Positions 15-11,309 of a stretch of DNA of 64,000 bases are shown in pieces. The DNA is from Zobellia galactanivorans (lineage in GTDB: Bacteria; Bacteroidota; Bacteroidia; Flavobacteriales; Flavobacteriaceae): contig NC_015844.1 in NCBI RefSeq assembly GCF_000973105.1, positions 372,001-436,000 on the forward strand. Direction: 5' to 3'. Positions within the stretch are counted from its first letter, which is position 1, and each line of letters starts with the position of its first letter. The position numbers were made by a program, and so were the translations under genes. A model generated the notes under the pieces. That model made no database searches. It was not told the origin of the DNA and saw nothing but the letters and a program-made list of their open reading frames with translations.

Positions 15-404
15 TCAGGAATAAATTGACAGATGGGACGAGATGTCCCGGTAACTCATCCCAAGGCCGTAGAGGCCGATGATCTTCTCCGAAAGGTTGT
101 CCGCCAAAATGGTCTGACGTTTCTTCACCAGCTCGGGCTCAAAACTGCTCTGGCGGTCCTGGGGAGTATCGATGTCGAAGGTGCCAAAACCACTTTTCAG
201 GGTCTTTTTCCCCTTGCCGTTGCGTTTGTTGCCCTTGGCGCGCTCACCCTCGTCCAGATGGCCGTCCATCTCCGCCTCAAGGGCCTTCTCGATCACATTC
301 TTCAGCATGGGGGCAAAGGCGCCCCCTTCTCCGAATAGGTTCTTGCCCGACATGAACTGCTCGAGCACCTTTTTTTCAAATTCAGTCTGTTCTTTCTTTG
401 TCAT
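15..404 (-). pseudogene. IS256-family transposase, N-terminal fragment
   Basis: A 129-codon frame matches the N-terminus of mutator-type (IS256) transposases: an N-terminal helix with ALEAEMDGHL, the KGNKRNG basic stretch, TPQDRQSSFEPELVKKRQ, and GLGMSYRDISSHL. Full-length family members have about 400 residues and a DDE catalytic core, which is absent here. The frame leaves transposase sequence at about position 30 and ends in SIYS, which is encoded by a repeat also found at 2751 and 6991. The gene is therefore cut at a repeat boundary and cannot be functional. Assignment rests on motif recognition. Confidence 0.85.
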
Positions 405-472
405 AATTCTGTCTGAATAAAATTAATAATTATAATCTTTTTTCAGACAGAGTTCAGTTTACAGTCTCACAA
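31..472 (-). mobile_element. IS256-type insertion sequence remnant
   Basis: This is the 5' part of an IS256-like element: the transposase start plus the upstream terminal region. TCTGTCTGAA (411-420) and its reverse complement (about 440-449) form an inverted pair upstream of the start codon, as expected near an IS terminal repeat. The outer boundary near 455-475 is approximate; beyond it the sequence is group II intron. The other end is missing, being replaced by repeat sequence at about position 30. Confidence 0.6.
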
Positions 473-940
473 CATGTGCTCCTATGCGAATTTTGAAGAG
501 AATTACGTTCGGTCCTTCCTTGTTCGTGAGACCTCTAGGATACTGCCCTAGCTCGTTTCCCTTAAGTAATATGACCTCTGCTGACTTCTCCATATAGCTA
601 CACGTAGCTTTGGAGACCTCCCCAGAGCCTGCCCCGATCTTTATCGGGGTAATTGCATCTTCTTTCGCTCAATAACCGCCGTATCTACATACTTACCCTT
701 TTGTAATCTTGGGGCGTTACAATGATGTGCTTGCTTACCCAAGTAAATATGCCTCCGTATACGGTTCCTGTTCGTCGGTACCGAGTTTTGTAGTCTCGCT
801 TTCTTCAGGTGTAACCTCACGGTTACCCCTTTTGCGACTTACTAATGCTTCCAGACGTTACCCCGGCGCATAAGGGACTTGCACCCTCTAGATTAATTAA
901 CTACTTTTCTGTGGTTAAAAGACGACCATACTGGGCACAC
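473..940 (-). mobile_element. Group II intron, 5' fragment (no ORF, no domains V/VI)
   Basis: Read on the minus strand from 940, the sequence begins GTGTGCCC (a GUGYG-type intron start). It continues with GGGTGCAAGTCCCTTA, GGTAACCGTGAGGTTAC, GAACCGTATACGGAGGC and GTCAGCAGAGGTCATA, all recognisable parts of the 5' ribozyme domains of bacterial group II introns. CCCCGAT/ATCGGGG (632-649) is a strong internal stem. No reverse transcriptase/maturase ORF and no domain V follow, because the fragment is interrupted by the IS256 remnant. The intron class was not determined. Confidence 0.75.
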
Positions 941-1066
941 ACCGTGAATAATTTATTGCTGTTTATGGCTTATTTAGGAAAATACTCGCAGACTTTTAAT
1001 TCAGTTTTTATTTGCCAAATTAGTTACATAAACCACGTAACTAACCAGACACAAACACGTTAGCGT
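941..1066. repeat. Structured intergenic repeat, type 2, copy 1
   Basis: The sequence abutting the intron start aligns with 2063-2172 over about 115 bases. Shared blocks include AATT(T)ATTGCT, the cctactt/gcttatt region, a GGATTTT/GACTTTTAATTC region, TATTTGC(C/T)AAATTA and CGTAACTAA. It ends near ACACGTTAGCG. It lies downstream of the minus-strand gene at 1155-1676. The role is unknown; it is one of several related modules between single genes in the first 11 kb. Confidence 0.6.
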
Positions 1067-1154
1067 TCATTTCACTACTCAGACTGAAAGTTTATCAAAT
1101 TTTCTCTGTAACGATTTTAATAACTGCTTTCTTGCCACTGGTGCGCTCTATCTA

Positions 1155-1676
1155 TTATCTTCTAAATTTAGGCCTTGATGGGACTGACTTGATGCCCTTT
1201 GGGGACTGACTTGATGCCCTTGATGGGGACTGACTTGATGCCCTTGACGGGGACTGACTTGATGCCCTTGATGGGGACTGACTTTGTTGTAGACCTTGAT
1301 AGATTTCTATAAAACGTAATTGATTTGAAATTGCTTTAATAGGCTTGAAACCACTAGAATTTATATGAATATTAACATCCTTAAAGGCATCATTATATAA
1401 TGGCTTCGCTGTCAACCCCCTTGGATTACCTCCTTCACGCCCTTGGGCTAAATTACCACTGAGTTTATTAAAATCACCTCCGTTATTATTTACCCATTTT
1501 TCCATTTCCTTCCAATAATCTTTAAATTTACCTTGGTCTATAGTATTCCCCTTATCTCTTACATCATTTTCGGTGGTGCCATCATTAATAAGGCTACTTA
1601 AAGTTTGTTTATCCATGACACCTCTCTTTACAAGTTGTCTTCCCATTTCTTTTGCTATTTCTGTATCACTAAACAT
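1155..1676 (-). CDS. Hypothetical protein with C-terminal SQSPSRAS tandem repeats
   Basis: Unrecognised 173-residue soluble protein with no signal peptide or membrane segment. The first 125 residues look globular and polar (KDYWKEMEKWVNNNGGDF near residues 53-70). The last 45 residues contain about four copies of an 8-residue serine/proline/arginine repeat encoded by a 24-bp tandem DNA repeat, then a basic end (SRPKFRR). The gene stands alone between intergenic repeats, is AT-rich and has no operon partner. Repeat number may vary between strains. No function can be inferred. Confidence 0.55.
   Translation of the reverse strand: MFSDTEIAKEMGRQLVKRGVMDKQTLSSLINDGTTENDVRDKGNTIDQGKFKDYWKEMEKWVNNNGGDFNKLSGNLAQGREGGNPRGLTAKPLYNDAFKDVNIHINSSGFKPIKAISNQLRFIEIYQGLQQSQSPSRASSQSPSRASSQSPSRASSQSPKGIKSVPSRPKFRR
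1177..1284 (-). repeat. 24-bp tandem repeat within a gene
   Basis: Units beginning GGGGACTGACTTGATG start exactly at 1201, 1225, 1249 and 1273. A shorter unit precedes them at about 1181. The period of 24 keeps the reading frame of the minus-strand gene and produces the SQSPSRAS repeats. Units differ by single bases (for example gatg/gacg). Confidence 0.9.
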
Positions 1677-2006
1677 ATTGATGTGTGTTTTTTATAAAAA
1701 CAAATTATAAAAGAAAAACCCTATTATTTCTTATACTTTTTTAATCCAGTTTTATTTAGCCATCCCCTGAAAATCATCTATAATATTTTGTTAAGTATTG
1801 ATTTTACTGATGTTTTCGTGAAGTAAAAAAGAGAAAAACTGTTTAAAATAGTTGTATTTTATAGTTGCAAAAAAAACATTCCTCTAAAAACAGTTTAATG
1901 GAAAAGATACTAATAAAGAAGACTCAAATTCACCTAAATGATTATTTTTCTACACCAAGTTCTCTAAGTGTTCATTCCCCAATTAGTAGGACAGGTTTTC
2001 TACAAA
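1677..2006. other. Intergenic region, AT-rich
   Basis: The span holds the upstream region of the minus-strand gene at 1155-1676 and no convincing ORF. AAAACTGTTTAAA (about 1844) and AAACAGTTTAA (about 1889) can pair as a weak stem. No clear promoter consensus was found. The right part (about 1950-2005) is unlike the neighbouring intron and repeat and was not identified. Confidence 0.4.
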
Positions 2007-2062
2007 TCTAGGTTAATTCATACTGCTTTTCCGTAGGTAAAAGATGCCCATGCCGGGCACAC
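2007..2062 (-). mobile_element. Second group II intron 5' end (about 56 nt)
   Basis: On the minus strand from 2062 the sequence begins GTGTGCCCGGCATGGGCATC and continues through a stretch ending in AACCTAGA. It parallels the start of the intron fragment at 940 (GTGTGCCCAG... ending TAATCTAGA). Homology stops right after CTAGA, so only the first part of domain I remains. The adjoining sequence on the 5' side is again the type 2 repeat, joined at the equivalent point. Confidence 0.65.
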
Positions 2063-2172
2063 ACAACGTATGAAATTAATTGCTAGTGCAAGCCTACTTA
2101 CGAAGATCCTCTCGGATTTTATATTCGGTTTGTATTTGCTAAATTAGGTACGTCAAACAACGTAACTAATCT
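2063..2172. repeat. Structured intergenic repeat, type 2, copy 2
   Basis: Homologous to 941-1066. It includes AATTGCTAGTGCAAGCCTAC, GATCC/GGATTTT potential pairing, TATTTGCTAAATTAGG and CGTAACTAATC. It ends about 25 bp before the next gene (2197), so the gene begins almost directly at the repeat edge. Confidence 0.6.
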
Positions 2173-2196
2173 TATACCAGACCGCTCTACACCATT

Positions 2197-2724
2197 TTGA
2201 AAAGAACAAAAATCCATACCACGAAGAAACTGCAAAAGTTGGTCAAGAAACTGATTTCGACCGATCAGAATCACGATTCCGGGAAACTCGGCAAATGGAA
2301 TGGAACGGTCTTCTACGTAGACAGAAAAAAATGTTGGTTGCTCACAAATGGACTTACCAAATACAACGTAATCCTGACGGACATCAAAGCGTCGGACTTG
2401 ACGAACATCGATTCAATATTCAAGGAATCGTTCTTTGGACAACTCGTGTACGACGGTATAATAACGGACTTTGAAAAGTTGGACTTGATAATCGGACAAT
2501 TGGAGTTTTTGCCAACGGACAATGACCGAAAAACAACTGGTTACCAAAATCACAGATTACGGGACCTGGACTGGTGGAAATATGAGTTCGGCAGTCTCGA
2601 AAACATGCCGATCAAGGACTTGACAAATAGACTGAACACAAGCCCAATCCACATCGGAAAAGGCCATAAAACGTCCGACTATACAGATTCGATAAAGGAA
2701 ATGGAGAAGCTGTTGGCTGAGTAA
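2197..2724 (+). CDS. DUF6933-like protein
   Basis: A 175-residue soluble protein. The start KIHTTKKLQKLV, the central LGKWNGTVFYVDRKKCWLLTN and the YNVIL strand resemble the DUF6933 family of small proteins of unknown function; the assignment is from memory of the family pattern. The first possible start is TTG at 2197, 25 bp past the preceding repeat. No in-frame ATG exists upstream, so the true start may be this TTG or may have been lost. The stop at 2724 is followed within 3 bp by the next repeat. CTCTACACC before the gene and GGTGTAGA after it are inverted, giving a cassette-like unit. Confidence 0.6.
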   Translation: MKRTKIHTTKKLQKLVKKLISTDQNHDSGKLGKWNGTVFYVDRKKCWLLTNGLTKYNVILTDIKASDLTNIDSIFKESFFGQLVYDGIITDFEKLDLIIGQLEFLPTDNDRKTTGYQNHRLRDLDWWKYEFGSLENMPIKDLTNRLNTSPIHIGKGHKTSDYTDSIKEMEKLLAE

Positions 2725-2726
2725 AA

Positions 2727-3039
2727 AACGGTGTAGAACAATGGTAAGCGTTGCACAACTCGTCATCAGGAATAAATTGATAGTTTTTGAATTATTTGAA
2801 ATAATTAAAACCCGATATATCAGTTAGTTATATTTTTCAAAAAATAACCTAACAAGCATGTATTAATGGAATTCATAGTTGCGCAACAAGCACAATGGAC
2901 ATAAATAATTGCTTGTTCTCACCTACTTCTGAAAATCCCCGCGGATTTTGCTTGCGCCAGTTCGCTGCGCTAGTGTCAGCTTGGTGCGTACTTGCAAAAT
3001 GTAAGTGCTAACCCAAGGAACTACGCTTAGTCAAGACCC
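2727..3039. repeat. Long structured intergenic repeat, type 1, copy B
   Basis: Begins right after the stop of the DUF6933-like gene with GGTGTAGAACAATGG and GTTGCACAACTCGTCATCAGG, continues through ATGGAATTCATAGTTGCGCAAC and GAAAATCCCCGCGGATTTT (a perfect stem), and ends CTACGCTTAGTCAAGACCC. Left parts recur at 1-30 and 6965-7135, right parts at 9923-10095. The remaining span to 3232 contains no ORF or other recognised feature. Confidence 0.8.
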
Positions 3040-3232
3040 TTATCCCCAATGGCTCCCAAAAACCATAGGAATTTGCATTTGATTAAAAATAACATTTACC
3101 CCATTGCGATAAGATTATATGCTCCCTGTTTCCTTACAATATGCTTATAGTTTGTATAGCTCCAGAAGCTACCTTAAAACAGCTAGTTGACGATAATCGT
3201 CCAGTTTCAGTAACCGCTATATATAAGAATCA

Positions 3233-4408: not shown

Positions 4409-5151
4409 AAATAATAGTACTTGCTGGTAATGATTTGAATTTAAGGCTATTTATCCTTCAATCTTAGTAGGTGAAAATAGGGATTTTGAAGGCTTTAATC
4501 GGAAAAATGAATATAGTAAGTTATTTCAGCTAGTTATTAAAGTTAACGACACAATCTTACTTTTAATTGTACCATTAAAACTCAAAGCAGTTTTAAGCAT
4601 CACATCGACATCGAAGAAATCCAATATGAACTGTAGGCAGTTCACCGCATTGAAAGGATTTGCCAAAGAAACAGTATGGTTTGCTAAATGCACTATTTAA
4701 AAAAAAACGTTGTTCACATGATAACGTTATCTTCAATTGCCCCAAAACAAAGATTTTGCCGTTATCGAAAGCTATTCAAGGACTCTGATATGGATAGGAT
4801 GTATCCCGTACTTATGGGCAAGCTCGGCAAGAAAAAAACTACCTGGTGAATTTACAGAGGGGGAAACGAATTACAACAATAGTACCCCTTGCACCAGTCT
4901 ATAATTGTCGAAATAACCACCTCCTAAGCGCTTTTTAGGGCAAAGACCGACCTATCTACTGTTCTCTGCCCCCTACGGAGCCCCTGTTAAAAACTTTCTT
5001 AAAGGCCTTACGTAAATCCGTAAGGCAGGTGTTCGTAAAGGTGGTAAATTAGAGGAGTTAAAAAGAAGGATATCGGTTTGCGGGTGCTATAAGAAGGATA
5101 GCATCAATAACTATATCCTGTTGTTGTAACCAATACGAAAAAATCCAACCA
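4409..5151. other. 743-bp region without intact gene; possible IS1 relic
   Basis: No intact ORF. On the plus strand around 4630-4700 a broken frame reads QFTALKGFAKETVWFAKCT, which loosely resembles the C-terminus of IS1-family transposases (...LARLxRKTxCFSKS). CCTTACG/CGTAAGG near 5008-5027 is a short hairpin. TTGTTGTAACCA at 5121-5132 is an inverted copy of a site just after the OLD gene. Other parts were not identified. Confidence 0.35.
5121..5132. repeat. 12-bp inverted repeat flanking the OLD gene (left arm)
   Basis: TTGTTGTAACCA lies 19 bp before the OLD start codon. Its exact reverse complement TGGTTACAACAA is at 6968-6979, 4 bp after the stop. The pair bounds the single gene precisely, like the ends of a gene cassette. 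Confidence 0.7.
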
Positions 5152-6963
5152 ATGATATTAGAAACAGTAAAAATCAAAAATTTTAGAGGTTATAAAACTG
5201 AGACAATTGTTCCAATTTCTAATCTAACTGCATTTATTGGAAAGAATGATGCAGGGAAATCTACTATTCTCGAAGCTCTTGAAATATTCTTCAATAATTC
5301 TTTAGTGAATTGTGAAAAGGGCGATTTAAACACTACAGCGGATAATAATAAGATTGAAATAACCTGTGTTTTTACTGATTTTCCGGCTGATTTAATAATT
5401 GATACAGCAAATCCTACTACTTTACAAAACGAATATCTATTAAATTTACAAAATAAACTAGAGATAAAAAAGGTCTTTGCAGCTACCGCCGCAAAACCTA
5501 AAGAGAAAGTTTATATAATTTGTAATCATCCGAGTGTAGATAATGGAAATGATTTACTTACTCTTAAAAAAGCTGAACTAAAACAAAGAGCTAAGGCGTT
5601 GGGTATTCCAACTGAAAATTATAATGGAAATGTCAATTCATCAATTCGAGAAGCAATAAGAAATTCTTTTGAAAATCTCGAGCTCGAGGAAACAGAATTG
5701 TTAGTTGACAAAGAAGACACTAAAAAAGTTTACGATACTATAAAAACTTACTTACCACTTTATGCTCTTTTTCAATCAGATAGGCAAAGTAAAGATGATG
5801 ATAAAGAAGTAAGTGACCCAATGAAAATTGCGGTTCAACAAGCCTTATCTGAATTAAATACTGAACTTGAACACATAAAAGAACAAGTTAGGATTAAAGC
5901 TATTGACACAGCTAACAGGACTTTAAACAAACTTAAAGAGATGTCGCCTGATTTAGCGAATGAATTAATTCCAGAGTTTAAAACCGAACCTAAATTTGAT
6001 TCACAATTTAAATTAACAATAAAATCTGAAGAGGATATTCCTATAAATAAAAGAGGAAGTGGAGTAAGAAGATTAATTCTATTAAACTTTTTCAGAGCAG
6101 AAGCAGAAAGATTAAGAGCTCAACATCAAGGAAATCAAATAATATTCGCATTTGAAGAACCTGAAACCTCTCAACATCCTGACCATCAAGAAATGCTGAT
6201 TCAAGCATTTATGGAACTATCAAATACAGGTAATTCACAGATAATTTTAACTACACATACACCTGCTCTTGCAGGTTTACTGCCATTAGATAGTTTACGT
6301 TTCATTCAAAAAAATGGAAATGACAGAACAATCGAATTAGGTACGGAAGATGTTTTTGAAAAAATTGCAGATACTTTAGGAGTTTTAGCAGACCCAATTT
6401 CAAAAAATGCAAGCGGAATTTTGCTAATAGAAGGTAAAAGCGATGTGACGTTTATAAATCATACTGCTACACAATTAAAAAACGGAGGATATATTGCTCA
6501 TACCTTTGTGGATAAAAGGATTGCTTTAGTTCCTATTGGAGGTTGTGGAAACTTAAAACATTGGACAACTCTTCGACTCATTGAGCAATTTGCTATTCCA
6601 TATGGTGTAATGTTAGACTCAGACTTAGGTACAAATGAAGAACAACAAAACAGAGATAAAATTCAAGAATTAAGGAATAATGGAATAAAAGCATATTTAA
6701 CTCGTAAACGAGAGCCTGAAAATTATGTACATATTGATGTTTTGAATTTGCCAGCAGGTAGCACATTTAATTTTACAGATACCTGCGATGCAAAGGTTTT
6801 AATCGCGGCAGAAAAGACATCAAGAAAACAAAATGTTCTTGAAGATTATTGGACACTTATGACAACAGAGCAAATAAGAGAAGTCGAGAGATATGATGAC
6901 AATGGAACAGAGCGATACGAATTCACGGAAATGTTCACAGATTTATTAAGCATTGTAGAATAA
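5152..6963 (+). CDS. OLD-family ATP-dependent endonuclease (stand-alone, class 1-like)
   Basis: A 603-residue protein with an ABC-type ATPase head followed by a TOPRIM nuclease. Seen: Walker A GKNDAGKST (30-38), signature-like RGSGVRR (about 301-307), Walker B IIFAFEEPE (about 330-338), H-loop TTHTPA (about 367), TOPRIM acidic IEGKSD (about 425) and MLDSD (about 487-491). OLD nucleases cleave or nick DNA and many act in anti-phage defence. A UvrD-like GajB helicase, which would make this Gabija, is not adjacent: the next gene encodes a 110-residue membrane protein. The gene is AT-rich and bounded by a 12-bp inverted repeat and a long intergenic repeat, consistent with horizontal gain. Confidence 0.85.
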   Translation: MILETVKIKNFRGYKTETIVPISNLTAFIGKNDAGKSTILEALEIFFNNSLVNCEKGDLNTTADNNKIEITCVFTDFPADLIIDTANPTTLQNEYLLNLQNKLEIKKVFAATAAKPKEKVYIICNHPSVDNGNDLLTLKKAELKQRAKALGIPTENYNGNVNSSIREAIRNSFENLELEETELLVDKEDTKKVYDTIKTYLPLYALFQSDRQSKDDDKEVSDPMKIAVQQALSELNTELEHIKEQVRIKAIDTANRTLNKLKEMSPDLANELIPEFKTEPKFDSQFKLTIKSEEDIPINKRGSGVRRLILLNFFRAEAERLRAQHQGNQIIFAFEEPETSQHPDHQEMLIQAFMELSNTGNSQIILTTHTPALAGLLPLDSLRFIQKNGNDRTIELGTEDVFEKIADTLGVLADPISKNASGILLIEGKSDVTFINHTATQLKNGGYIAHTFVDKRIALVPIGGCGNLKHWTTLRLIEQFAIPYGVMLDSDLGTNEEQQNRDKIQELRNNGIKAYLTRKREPENYVHIDVLNLPAGSTFNFTDTCDAKVLIAAEKTSRKQNVLEDYWTLMTTEQIREVERYDDNGTERYEFTEMFTDLLSIVE

Positions 6964-6964
6964 G

Positions 6965-7365
6965 TACTGGTTACAACAATGGTAACCGTTGCACAACTCG
7001 TCATCAGGAATAAATTGATAGTTTTTGAATTATCAAAAACAATTAAAACTCAATATATCAGCTAGTTATATTTCGTAATAAATAACCAAGAAGTACGTAT
7101 TAATGGAATTCATAGTTGCGCAACAGGCACAAAACCTATACGTAATGCGGAGTTTAGGGCTAAATCTAAATGTCTGTGTATTTTTATGATGTCGCTAAAT
7201 TGAAGATTACGCGACAGCGAAATATTAAATTTTAGCTTTGGAACAAAAAAAGCAAAACCAAAAGCTTTAGCTTCGTGCGCAGACGTAAACTGGCCAGCGC
7301 GCCAACTCGCCCACTGCTGTCGCAGATGTCGTACCTCCACACTACGCTTAGCCCAATCGTTACCT
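6965..7365. repeat. Long structured intergenic repeat, type 1, copy C
   Basis: Starts directly after the OLD stop (TGGTTACAACAATGGTAACC, GTTGCACAACTCGTCATCAGG). It shares about 150 bp with copy B through GAATTCATAGTTGCGCAACA, then continues with different sequence (TAAATCTAAATGTCTGTGTA, AGACGTAAACTGGCCAGCGC, CTGTCGCAGATGTCG) and ends CTACGCTTAGCCCAATCGTT. The short frame at 7110-7340 on the minus strand is within the repeat and is not considered a gene. The region up to 7418 has no further feature. Confidence 0.8.
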
Positions 7366-9922: not shown

Positions 9923-10095
9923 ATGGAATTCATAGTTGCGCAACAGGCACAATGGCCATAAATAATTGCTTGTTCTCACCTACTTCTGAAAATCCCCGCA
10001 GATTTTGCTTGCGCCAGTTCGCTGCGCTCGTGTCAGTTTGGTGCGTACTTGCAAAATTTAGTGCTACCCCACGCAACTACGCTTAGCCAAGACCC
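9923..10095. repeat. Structured intergenic repeat, type 1, copy D (right part)
   Basis: Nearly identical to the right half of copy B (2867-3039): ATGGAATTCATAGTTGCGCA, AATAATTGCTTGTTCTCACC, GAAAATCCCCGC and GATTTT stem, TTGCGCCAGTTCGCTGCGCT, ending GCTTAGCCAAGACCC. The left half found in copies B and C is absent. Confidence 0.85.
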
Positions 10096-10169
10096 TTGAC
10101 ATTAATTTAAAACTTAGGCTCTCACACAAACTTGGTAATACGTATTTGTATAATCAAAATCCAAAAAAG

Positions 10170-10247
10170 ATACATATAAGTATTCTTTTATTATTTTTTT
10201 TATATTTATATGTATACTTTTAAATTAAATTACATACTTATATGTAT
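10170..10247. promoter_or_regulatory. Putative operator of the mobile mystery A/B pair
   Basis: ATACATATAAGTAT (10170-10183) is exactly inverted at 10234-10247 (ATACTTATATGTAT). A third related half-site, TATATGTATAC, lies at about 10206-10216. The sites are within 100 bp upstream of ATG 10261, where an HTH antitoxin-like protein would repress its own operon. Autoregulation is an inference from the position and symmetry. Confidence 0.5.
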
Positions 10248-10260
10248 AAAATACGAACAA

Positions 10261-10722
10261 ATGAGAAACAAGAAAAAACTACTCATAGAACAACTAGACC
10301 AAAAATTGGCGAATTTTAAAGATGCCGGAACCGTCCTGGTCCCACAAAAGGGATGGGTGAATACTATTAGAACTACCCTTAATATGACGAGGGACCAATT
10401 AGGGACCAAACTTAACTTAACTAAAGGAGCTATACAAAAAATCGAGGAACGTGAAGCTACAGGCCAGATAACCCTCAATAAATTAAAAGATGTCGGTAAT
10501 GCTTTGAATATGAAACTTGTCTATGGTTTTATTCCGAAAGATGGGACGATTGAAAGCTTAGTAAACTTAAAGGCCGAAAAGCTAGCACGAAAAATAGTTT
10601 TAAGGACGAATCAAAACATGAAATTAGAGAACCAAGGAATTGGGGATGAAAAAATAAACAAAACCATAAAAGAACTTGCTGACGAAATAAAACGAGAGAT
10701 GAAAAAATCATTATGGGATTAG
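10261..10722 (+). CDS. Mobile mystery protein A (HTH antitoxin-like)
   Basis: A 153-residue protein with a Cro/CI-type helix-turn-helix at about residues 40-95 (MTRDQLGTKLNLTKGAIQKI...EREATGQITLNKLKDVGNAL). It always pairs with a Fic protein (mobile mystery B), the arrangement found here with a 10-bp overlap. I chose ATG 10261 rather than the in-frame ATG at 10210, because the longer version would run through the palindromic TATATGTAT sites and add a hydrophobic, atypical N-terminus. It probably represses the pair and counteracts Fic activity, as in HTH/Fic toxin-antitoxin modules. That role is not experimentally established for this family, as far as I know. Confidence 0.8.
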   Translation: MRNKKKLLIEQLDQKLANFKDAGTVLVPQKGWVNTIRTTLNMTRDQLGTKLNLTKGAIQKIEEREATGQITLNKLKDVGNALNMKLVYGFIPKDGTIESLVNLKAEKLARKIVLRTNQNMKLENQGIGDEKINKTIKELADEIKREMKKSLWD

Positions 10723-11309
10723 AGTTCGATTATAAAGATGGACAAACACCTTTAGACGAAGAAGAAAAGGAAGGCCTTAAAATAAAGTCTATTACTACTC
10801 AAGCAGAACTAGATGAATTTGAGCAATTGAATATTGAAAAAGCAGTGGAATGGACTATTCATACAAAATTCAAACTTGAAAAAATTTTAACTGAAAAGTT
10901 TGTAAGAGGCTTGCACAAAAGAATGTATGGTGATGTATGGAAATGGGCAGGCGATTTTAGAAAGACCGAAAAGAACATTGGAATTCCGTGGACGCAAATT
11001 GGAATTGAATTAAAAAATTTACTGGACGACACTAAGTATTGGATAGAAAACAAAACTTTTCCACCTGAAGAAATAGCTATAAGATTTAAACATCGCATAG
11101 TATCCATTCATTGCTTTCCAAATGGAAATGGAAGACACTCGAGAATGATGGCCGACATTATTATGGAATCAATATTTGGAAATGAAATATTTTCTTGGCA
11201 TCAATCAAATATGGTTGAAGCTAATGAAACAAGAAAACAATATATAAAAGCCCTAAGAGAAGCAGACCATGGCAATTATAAACAGTTAATTGAATTTGCA
11301 AAAAACTAA
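10713..11309 (+). CDS. Mobile mystery protein B (Fic-domain protein)
   Basis: A 198-residue Fic protein. The core motif is HCFPNGNGRHSR at residues 133-144, matching HxFxxGNGR, so the catalytic His133 and phosphate-binding loop are intact. Preceding helices (FVRGLHKRMYGDVWKWAGDF) are typical of the Fic/DOC fold. Fic enzymes usually transfer AMP to protein hydroxyls. No clear inhibitory [S/T]xxxE[G/N] motif was seen in this protein. It overlaps the upstream HTH gene by 10 bp, which implies translational coupling. The stop is followed 4 bp later by the right copy of the inverted-repeat element. Confidence 0.85.
   Translation: MGLEFDYKDGQTPLDEEEKEGLKIKSITTQAELDEFEQLNIEKAVEWTIHTKFKLEKILTEKFVRGLHKRMYGDVWKWAGDFRKTEKNIGIPWTQIGIELKNLLDDTKYWIENKTFPPEEIAIRFKHRIVSIHCFPNGNGRHSRMMADIIMESIFGNEIFSWHQSNMVEANETRKQYIKALREADHGNYKQLIEFAKN

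Follow-up and report, generated by a model that had tools for sequence, protein, structure and literature searches.

Two group II intron ends that abut two copies of the same repeat raise the question of what this repeat is and whether the intron selects it. Such a pair is found in the window, which here means the whole analysed stretch of 64,000 nucleotides (positions 372001-436000) of the closed 5.52-Mb genome of Zobellia galactanivorans. An earlier note on this DNA proposed that the intron ends at 940 and 2062 join the repeats at the equivalent base, that the intron has the repeat as its target, and that this target may be a structured, recombination-like one comparable with the attC sites of integrons. 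The data presented here make it very probable that the repeat serves a chromosomal integron-like system of Bacteroidota as an attC-type site, and that the intron belongs to a group IIC lineage targeting such sites.

Intron Copies and Repeats in the Window

The 5′ end of the intron, GTGTGCCC, occurs on the minus strand of the window at 933-940 and 2055-2062, and both occurrences sit at the ends of copies of a repeat of ~110 nt, designated A and B, which are 76% identical to each other. Intron A is matched by the Rfam family group-II-D1D4-3 at 826-654 with 120.8 bits (E 2.9e-24), and the Rfam scan of the window returned no match besides the intron. This copy is interrupted by a transposase remnant, and only a stub is left of intron B, which is 78-85% identical to the other intron copies (Table 1). 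A search of the Z. galactanivorans genome with the repeat and the intron revealed two further complete, ORF-less introns (3779976 and 3906591), located directly after the same repeat and at the same base, together with empty copies of the repeat at 3107819, 3702219, and 3876054. Since complete introns follow the same repeat elsewhere in the genome, the match in the window cannot be ascribed to chance.

The junction at 2062 reads ACGTTGT^GTGTG, like most copies, whereas that at 940 reads CACGGT^GTGTG and is 2 nt shorter, one GT being missing from the GTGTGTG run. The same short junction (GGT^GTGTG) is present at locus L089 (position 1658), in a genome of the same genus as the window, and both short junctions are probably due to slippage in GTGTGTG. 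The claim of an equivalent base is correct in that both intron ends abut related repeats, but the equivalence holds only within 2 nt. The repeat, described in the earlier note as type 2, ends at the junction because the R″ box resumes beyond the intron. No reverse transcriptase of the Bacteroidota intron clade was found in the Z. galactanivorans genome at E ≤ 1e-100, on which ground the intron copies of this genome may be immobile relics.

Table 1. Intron fragments, attC-like sites, and cassettes in the window (window coordinates; genome coordinates in brackets).
Feature	Position	Strand	Evidence and remarks
IS256/Mutator-type transposase remnant	15-468		PF00872, 65 bits; truncates intron A at ~469
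Group IIC intron A, 5′ part (D1-D4)	469..940	-	Rfam RF02001; 89% to query 1-450 of complete copy L019
attC-like site A, bottom-strand orientation	941..1065	-	nhmmer E 5.6e-36; intron in R″ box; R′ top-strand GTTAGCG at 1059
Intron B, truncated 5′ stub, ~56 nt	2007..2062	-	Alignment of copies A, B, C, and F; nhmmer E 3.4e-7
attC-like site B, bottom-strand orientation	2063..2187	-	nhmmer E 5.4e-37; R′ decayed to CGCT
Gene cassette downstream of site B	2180..2745	+	Ends GCTCTACACC / GGTGTAGAAC, 9/10 complementary
attC-like site, diverged subtype	2889..3044 (374889-375044)	-	nhmmer E 2e-11
Probable gene cassette with AAA/OLD-like ATPase	5123..6977	+	Ends GTTGTAACC / GGTTACAAC; GGTTACAACAATGG right after ORF stop
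attC-like site, diverged subtype	9947..10100 (381947-382100)	-	nhmmer E 4.9e-13

The cassette downstream of site B contains an ORF of the DUF6933 family (2197-2724; Pfam PF22016, 115 bits). Pairs of cassette ends like those of the probable cassette at 5123..6977 are expected 2.8 times by chance and are weak evidence alone; its ATPase gene (5152-6963) is AAA_15/OLD-like, scoring 253 bits with the AriA model, and the cassette is possibly one for phage defence. A minus-strand ORF at 1155-1676 runs antisense to its own cassette, and its 3′ end contains a tandem array of about four 24-nt units. Close to an attC-like site, two adjacent ORFs occupy 10210-11309, the second being Fic-like (PADLOC PDC-S04, SoFic) and the first showing a weak HTH-type match; they could represent a toxin-antitoxin-like or defence pair.

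Insertion Target of the Intron

The intron was searched for in 299 Flavobacteriaceae genomes and found in 42, from the loci of which 46 distinct 5′ junctions were collected. The sequence TGT^GTGTG is read at 43 of these junctions. On the exon side, position −1 is T in all 46 and position −2 is G in 45, followed by T at −3 in 43 and by T (25) or G (14) at −4. The 3′ exons begin with T in 37 of 38 readable cases, and the next base is nearly always A or G. From the bases of both junctions, the target can therefore be rebuilt as TTGT^TR or GTGT^TR, with the insertion point at GT^T in one of the two arms of a hairpin. The last 22-24 nt before the junction pair with a segment ~50-200 nt further upstream, which starts with a YAACG motif, and the two arms covary, as exemplified by GGGTAG/CTACCC in L057 and GGGTATAGCC/GGCTATGCCC in L097. 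In a permutation test with no selection on pairing, the arms pair better with their own partners than with partners from other loci (z = 14), and 20 of 44 junction hairpins are individually supported at p < 0.05. The intron of L096 (position 2094) lies in a (TG)n run where no attC-like site can be recognised, its 3′ exon begins with G, and the L099 junction lacks a clear partner arm. In other families, a regular expression for intron 5′ ends matched none, and the 3′ exons of introns mostly start with TG or TA.

The alignment of more insertions, one of the checks proposed in the earlier note, thus returned a fixed position at GT^T of a covarying hairpin across 46 distinct junctions in relatives, as expected if the intron targets the repeat; differing insertion positions, which would have refuted the proposal, are not what the junctions display. 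Folding the repeat, another of its checks, gave a hairpin with covarying arms, the bottom strand of which forms the more stable fold in 8/8 Z. galactanivorans sites.

Class and Mobility of the Intron

Domain D5 of the intron, GAACCGCCGTATACGAGACCCGTACGTACGGTGGTGT, when aligned to RF00029, carries the catalytic triad CGC, which is present in most of ~35 intron copies, whereas IIA and IIB introns have AGC. The reverse transcriptase encoded by full-length relatives contains RVT_1 and GIIM domains, and no endonuclease domain was found in it. The best solved matches of this enzyme are the GsI-IIC reverse transcriptase (345 bits) and 7uim (344 bits), compared to 120 bits for LtrA and 116 bits for 6me0. 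By its CGC triad and the endonuclease-less class C reverse transcriptase of its relatives, the intron is a member of group IIC. Further traits of this group are met by the covarying hairpin upstream of the intron, in place of IBS2, and by a short IBS1-EBS1 interaction; the latter pairing is inferred, the EBS1 loop being CUACAAAAC or CUGCAAAUU where readable and complementary to TTGT. One genome (G125) carries three 1855-nt introns that are identical (0 mismatches) and occupy three different attC sites within 6.5 kb, an identity that, at the level of sequence, indicates recent movement.

For introns of the IIC-attC type, the published insertion point is TTGT/T within R″ on the bottom strand of attC, with the intron running antisense to the cassettes (PMC7923331); Kl.pn.I3 is a proteobacterial representative (PMC5027574). 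The Bacteroidota intron resembles those of Proteobacteria (S.ma.I2 and Kl.pn.I3) in class, in the TTGT/T position on the R″ bottom strand, and in its antisense direction, and its 5′ end is similar to that of Kl.pn.I3, GTGTACGCCCAGCATGGGCAT. The reverse transcriptases, however, are less alike. The Kl.pn.I3 reference was taken from pIMP-1495, p1220-IMP having no annotated reverse transcriptase; this enzyme is 45-51% identical to Firmicutes class C enzymes and, in the fuller pairs, 35-40% identical to the Bacteroidota clade. The Bacteroidota enzymes form a separate clade with Kl.pn.I3 outside (100/100), albeit in a small tree with long branches and one reference. Two independent origins of attC targeting, or a long history of it within class C, would both fit, and a single reference does not decide between them. 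Group IIB introns adjoin integron cassettes in halophiles (PMC7923331); they are similar in being group II introns in cassette arrays, but belong to class IIB, with no fixed TTGT/T position in R″ described.

Cassette Arrays Linked to a Tyrosine Recombinase

The Z. galactanivorans sites were mapped in stretches only, comprising ~260 kb around the main array and other loci. The repeats lie at gene ends and have conserved termini and variable centres. Within the main cluster (3696652-3710409), cassettes span the intervals between neighbouring sites, and the ends of the four cassettes without large inserts are perfectly complementary over 9-10 nt (e.g., GTTGTAGTGC ... GCACTACAAC). The cluster is preceded by a tyrosine recombinase gene (3691422-3692534), and the sequence GTTGTGCATA, located 131 nt past its stop codon (3692665), is complementary to R″ of the first site and constitutes an attI-like junction. 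As part of the best explanation, introns A and B of the window would be two decayed insertions in a stray group of cassettes located 3.3 Mb away from the recombinase.

Homologs of the recombinase were detected at E ≤ 1e-60 in 93 of the 149 Flavobacteriaceae genomes sampled and in 113 of 247 genomes across the class. Arrays were surveyed at 20 recombinase loci, 20 kb each, from 18 Flavobacteriaceae genomes, using a site finder that combines a profile built from the intron junctions, with the window's genome excluded, and the requirement of a partner arm. A total of 134 sites were found at 20/20 loci; all of them follow the recombinase gene and face the same way (0 opposite, 0 upstream), the first one lying 320-2570 bp past the recombinase gene. 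By contrast, twenty random 20-kb segments (400 kb), nearly all from the same genomes, yielded 0 sites. The suggestion that the repeat is a structured, recombination-like target is borne out by this ability of a profile drawn from intron junctions to find recombinase-linked sites and none in the control.

The anatomy of the arrays is regular. The cassettes have a median length of 688 bp, and in 97 of 109 the longest ORF is on the expected strand. They start with CGTT-N7-AATTT and end with AAAAAC-N7-AACA, where N7 is private to each cassette, and complementary ends of at least 7 nt are shared by 99 of 114 neighbouring pairs, compared to 8.4% of random pairs. Against the R″/R′ consensus RYYYAAC/GTTRRRY, the AAC/GTT core and the next purine are conserved, and further positions vary by cassette. 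An attI-like junction matching the first R″ follows the recombinase gene in 15 of 20 loci (0.89 expected); the attI trait of integrons was judged to be met by this junction alone, that is, by its match to the first-cassette ends. At 125 of 134 sites, the more stable fold is that of the bottom strand, a bias expected of attC sites. A permutation test on the 134 array sites gave z = 37, but this value is biased because the sites were selected by pairing, and reliance is placed on the unselected intron junctions instead.

Many recombinase genes of draft genomes are within a few kb of a contig end, as expected beside repeats. Beyond the Flavobacteriaceae, arrays could be recognised at only part of the recombinase loci of the class, which may reflect a profile tuned to that family. 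Intron-positive genomes are not visibly enriched for the recombinase at the cut-off used, the genome lists having been compared by eye. At three loci (L147, L148, and L151), the attI-like junctions just after the recombinase are preceded by palindromes such as ATAAACCCCATGGGGTTTAT, an architecture unlike that of other loci.

The Recombinase Compared with Integron Integrases

The recombinase scores 207 bits on the IntI model TIGR02249 (cut-off 265) and 214 bits on the archaeal XerA model (cut-off 220). No gene of the Z. galactanivorans genome exceeds the TIGR02249 cut-off, and the other two matching genes are of ordinary Xer size. Aligned to the IntI4 structure 2a3v, the recombinase is ~43 residues short in the region of the IntI-specific patch, its residues 272-297 spanning 179-247 of IntI4, and the distance from GKG to HxLRH is 65-66 aa in all recombinases with both motifs matched. 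Among solved structures, archaeal XerA is closest in sequence (146 bits), and the N-terminal ~90 residues (L036 1422-1700) lie outside the XerA and IntI matches. The predicted structure can be superposed on XerA (Z 24.0, rmsd 15.3, 254 aligned), IntI4 (Z 21.9, rmsd 3.5, 255 aligned), and XerH (Z 21.4, rmsd 4.0, 269 aligned), and these model-based matches do not settle which of the three is most similar. Canonical integrases act on the folded site by means of the IntI-specific patch; without it, substrate recognition may differ. The recombinase does not meet the integron criterion of an IntI-specific additional domain, and the system fails as an integron in the strict sense on this test.

Integrons consisting of IntI, attI, and attC, such as the chromosomal integron of Vibrio cholerae, are alike in having an integrase gene with an adjacent attI-like junction, single-gene cassette arrays of one orientation with GTT at the cassette boundary, and attC hairpins with conserved ends, a variable centre, and a more stable bottom strand. 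The Bacteroidota system differs in its XerA-like, patchless recombinase, in a cassette tag that is longer and private (GTT-N7-AATTT / AAAAAC-N7-AACA versus RYYYAAC/GTTRRRY), and in the placement of its array, which follows the integrase gene and shares its orientation. Complete integrons have been reported in Bacteroidetes/Chlorobi, including Salinibacter ruber and others, and IntI integrons are reported to be rare in Bacteroidetes (PMC9024848). These integrons share the broad phylum group and the cassette arrays, but they were found with the IntI model, whereas the Flavobacteriaceae recombinase falls below its cut-off. On anatomy, it is well supported that the system works like an integron; recombination itself is inferred.

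Alternative Explanations

Terminator hairpins are known targets of group IIC introns (PMC7923331), and the attC-like sites do fall at gene 3′ ends, so that an ordinary group IIC intron could be inserting after any terminator-like hairpin, the repeats being merely hairpins at the ends of genes. The position of insertion, however, is fixed at GT^TR inside R″ and not past a T run, the hairpins are long and imperfect with a conserved TATA-C-TGT arm, and the insertion-site profile finds recombinase-linked arrays and nothing in controls. This explanation is highly improbable, and terminator-hairpin targeting was rejected as a general rule on account of the fixed position and the recombinase-linked arrays. 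Even harder to uphold is the idea that the repeats are a dispersed, non-mobile element (MITE-like or a regulatory hairpin) unrelated to a recombinase of the chromosome-dimer or phage type. It draws on the closeness of the recombinase sequence to archaeal XerA and on the many Z. galactanivorans repeats that are far from the recombinase gene. It would not account for the one-sided linkage of sites in one orientation at every surveyed locus, the private complementary cassette ends, or the matching junction just after the recombinase gene.

A different objection concerns the second fragment, and perhaps others, which may have been duplicated together with the repeat rather than independently inserted; copying of this kind had been named in the earlier note as a possible refutation. 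The small size of stub B and the repeat and junction common to A and B are compatible with it. Nevertheless, the identity between A and B (repeat 76%, intron 78%) does not exceed that of either with copies C and F, which lie elsewhere in the genome (repeat 77-82%, intron 85-93%), and the sequences that flank A and B on the outside are different. Copying is also unlikely as the general cause because the three identical introns mentioned above reside in clearly different attC sites of one genome. We consider duplication of repeat and intron improbable and unsupported, except possibly for stub B, for which insertion followed by truncation cannot be distinguished from copying.

Proposed Mechanism

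The preferred reading remains an attC-type site that belongs to an integron-like system and is targeted by the intron. The system would combine an XerA-like tyrosine recombinase with an attI-like junction shortly past the recombinase gene and with an array of cassettes of one gene apiece; an imperfect hairpin of ~123 nt would follow every cassette, and each cassette would bear its own private tag of ~7 nt at both ends, in inverted form. The excised intron, together with its endonuclease-less reverse transcriptase, would recognise the folded bottom strand, with the hairpin replacing IBS2. EBS1 (ACAA or GCAA) is predicted to pair with IBS1 (TTGT, or GTGT with one mismatch), and reverse splicing would place the intron in R″, after GT and before T, in antisense direction relative to the cassette genes. 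The insertion positions, hairpin covariation, strand, intron class, array anatomy, cassette-end complementarity, and recombinase linkage are established as far as comparison of DNA and protein sequences can establish them. Movement of cassettes by the recombinase is inferred, with no recombination assay, as is the role of the folded single strand as substrate of both enzymes, including reverse splicing into the folded bottom strand, for which there is no retrohoming assay.

Conclusions

The IIC-attC introns are already known; what appears to be new is a Bacteroidota system with an XerA-like recombinase and group IIC introns that target its sites. In the open-licence literature, which did not include preprints, no description was found of such a recombinase system in Bacteroidota or of IIC introns directed at its sites, and this absence is weak evidence. 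We lean towards the view that Bacteroidota carry a widespread integron-type system of their own, with an XerA-like, patchless recombinase and private 7-nt tags, which IntI-based surveys have missed, and that a separate IIC lineage has adapted to its attC sites with a target position matching that of the proteobacterial IIC-attC introns.

In integron biology, the ability to recombine a folded single strand is attributed to the extra domain of IntI. Many genomes with the full integron anatomy but no IntI domain make the need for this domain directly testable. Moreover, the intron provides an independent means of detecting attC DNA, as the arrays could be located from its insertion sites alone, and it may offer a site-specific tool for the cassette arrays of Bacteroidota.
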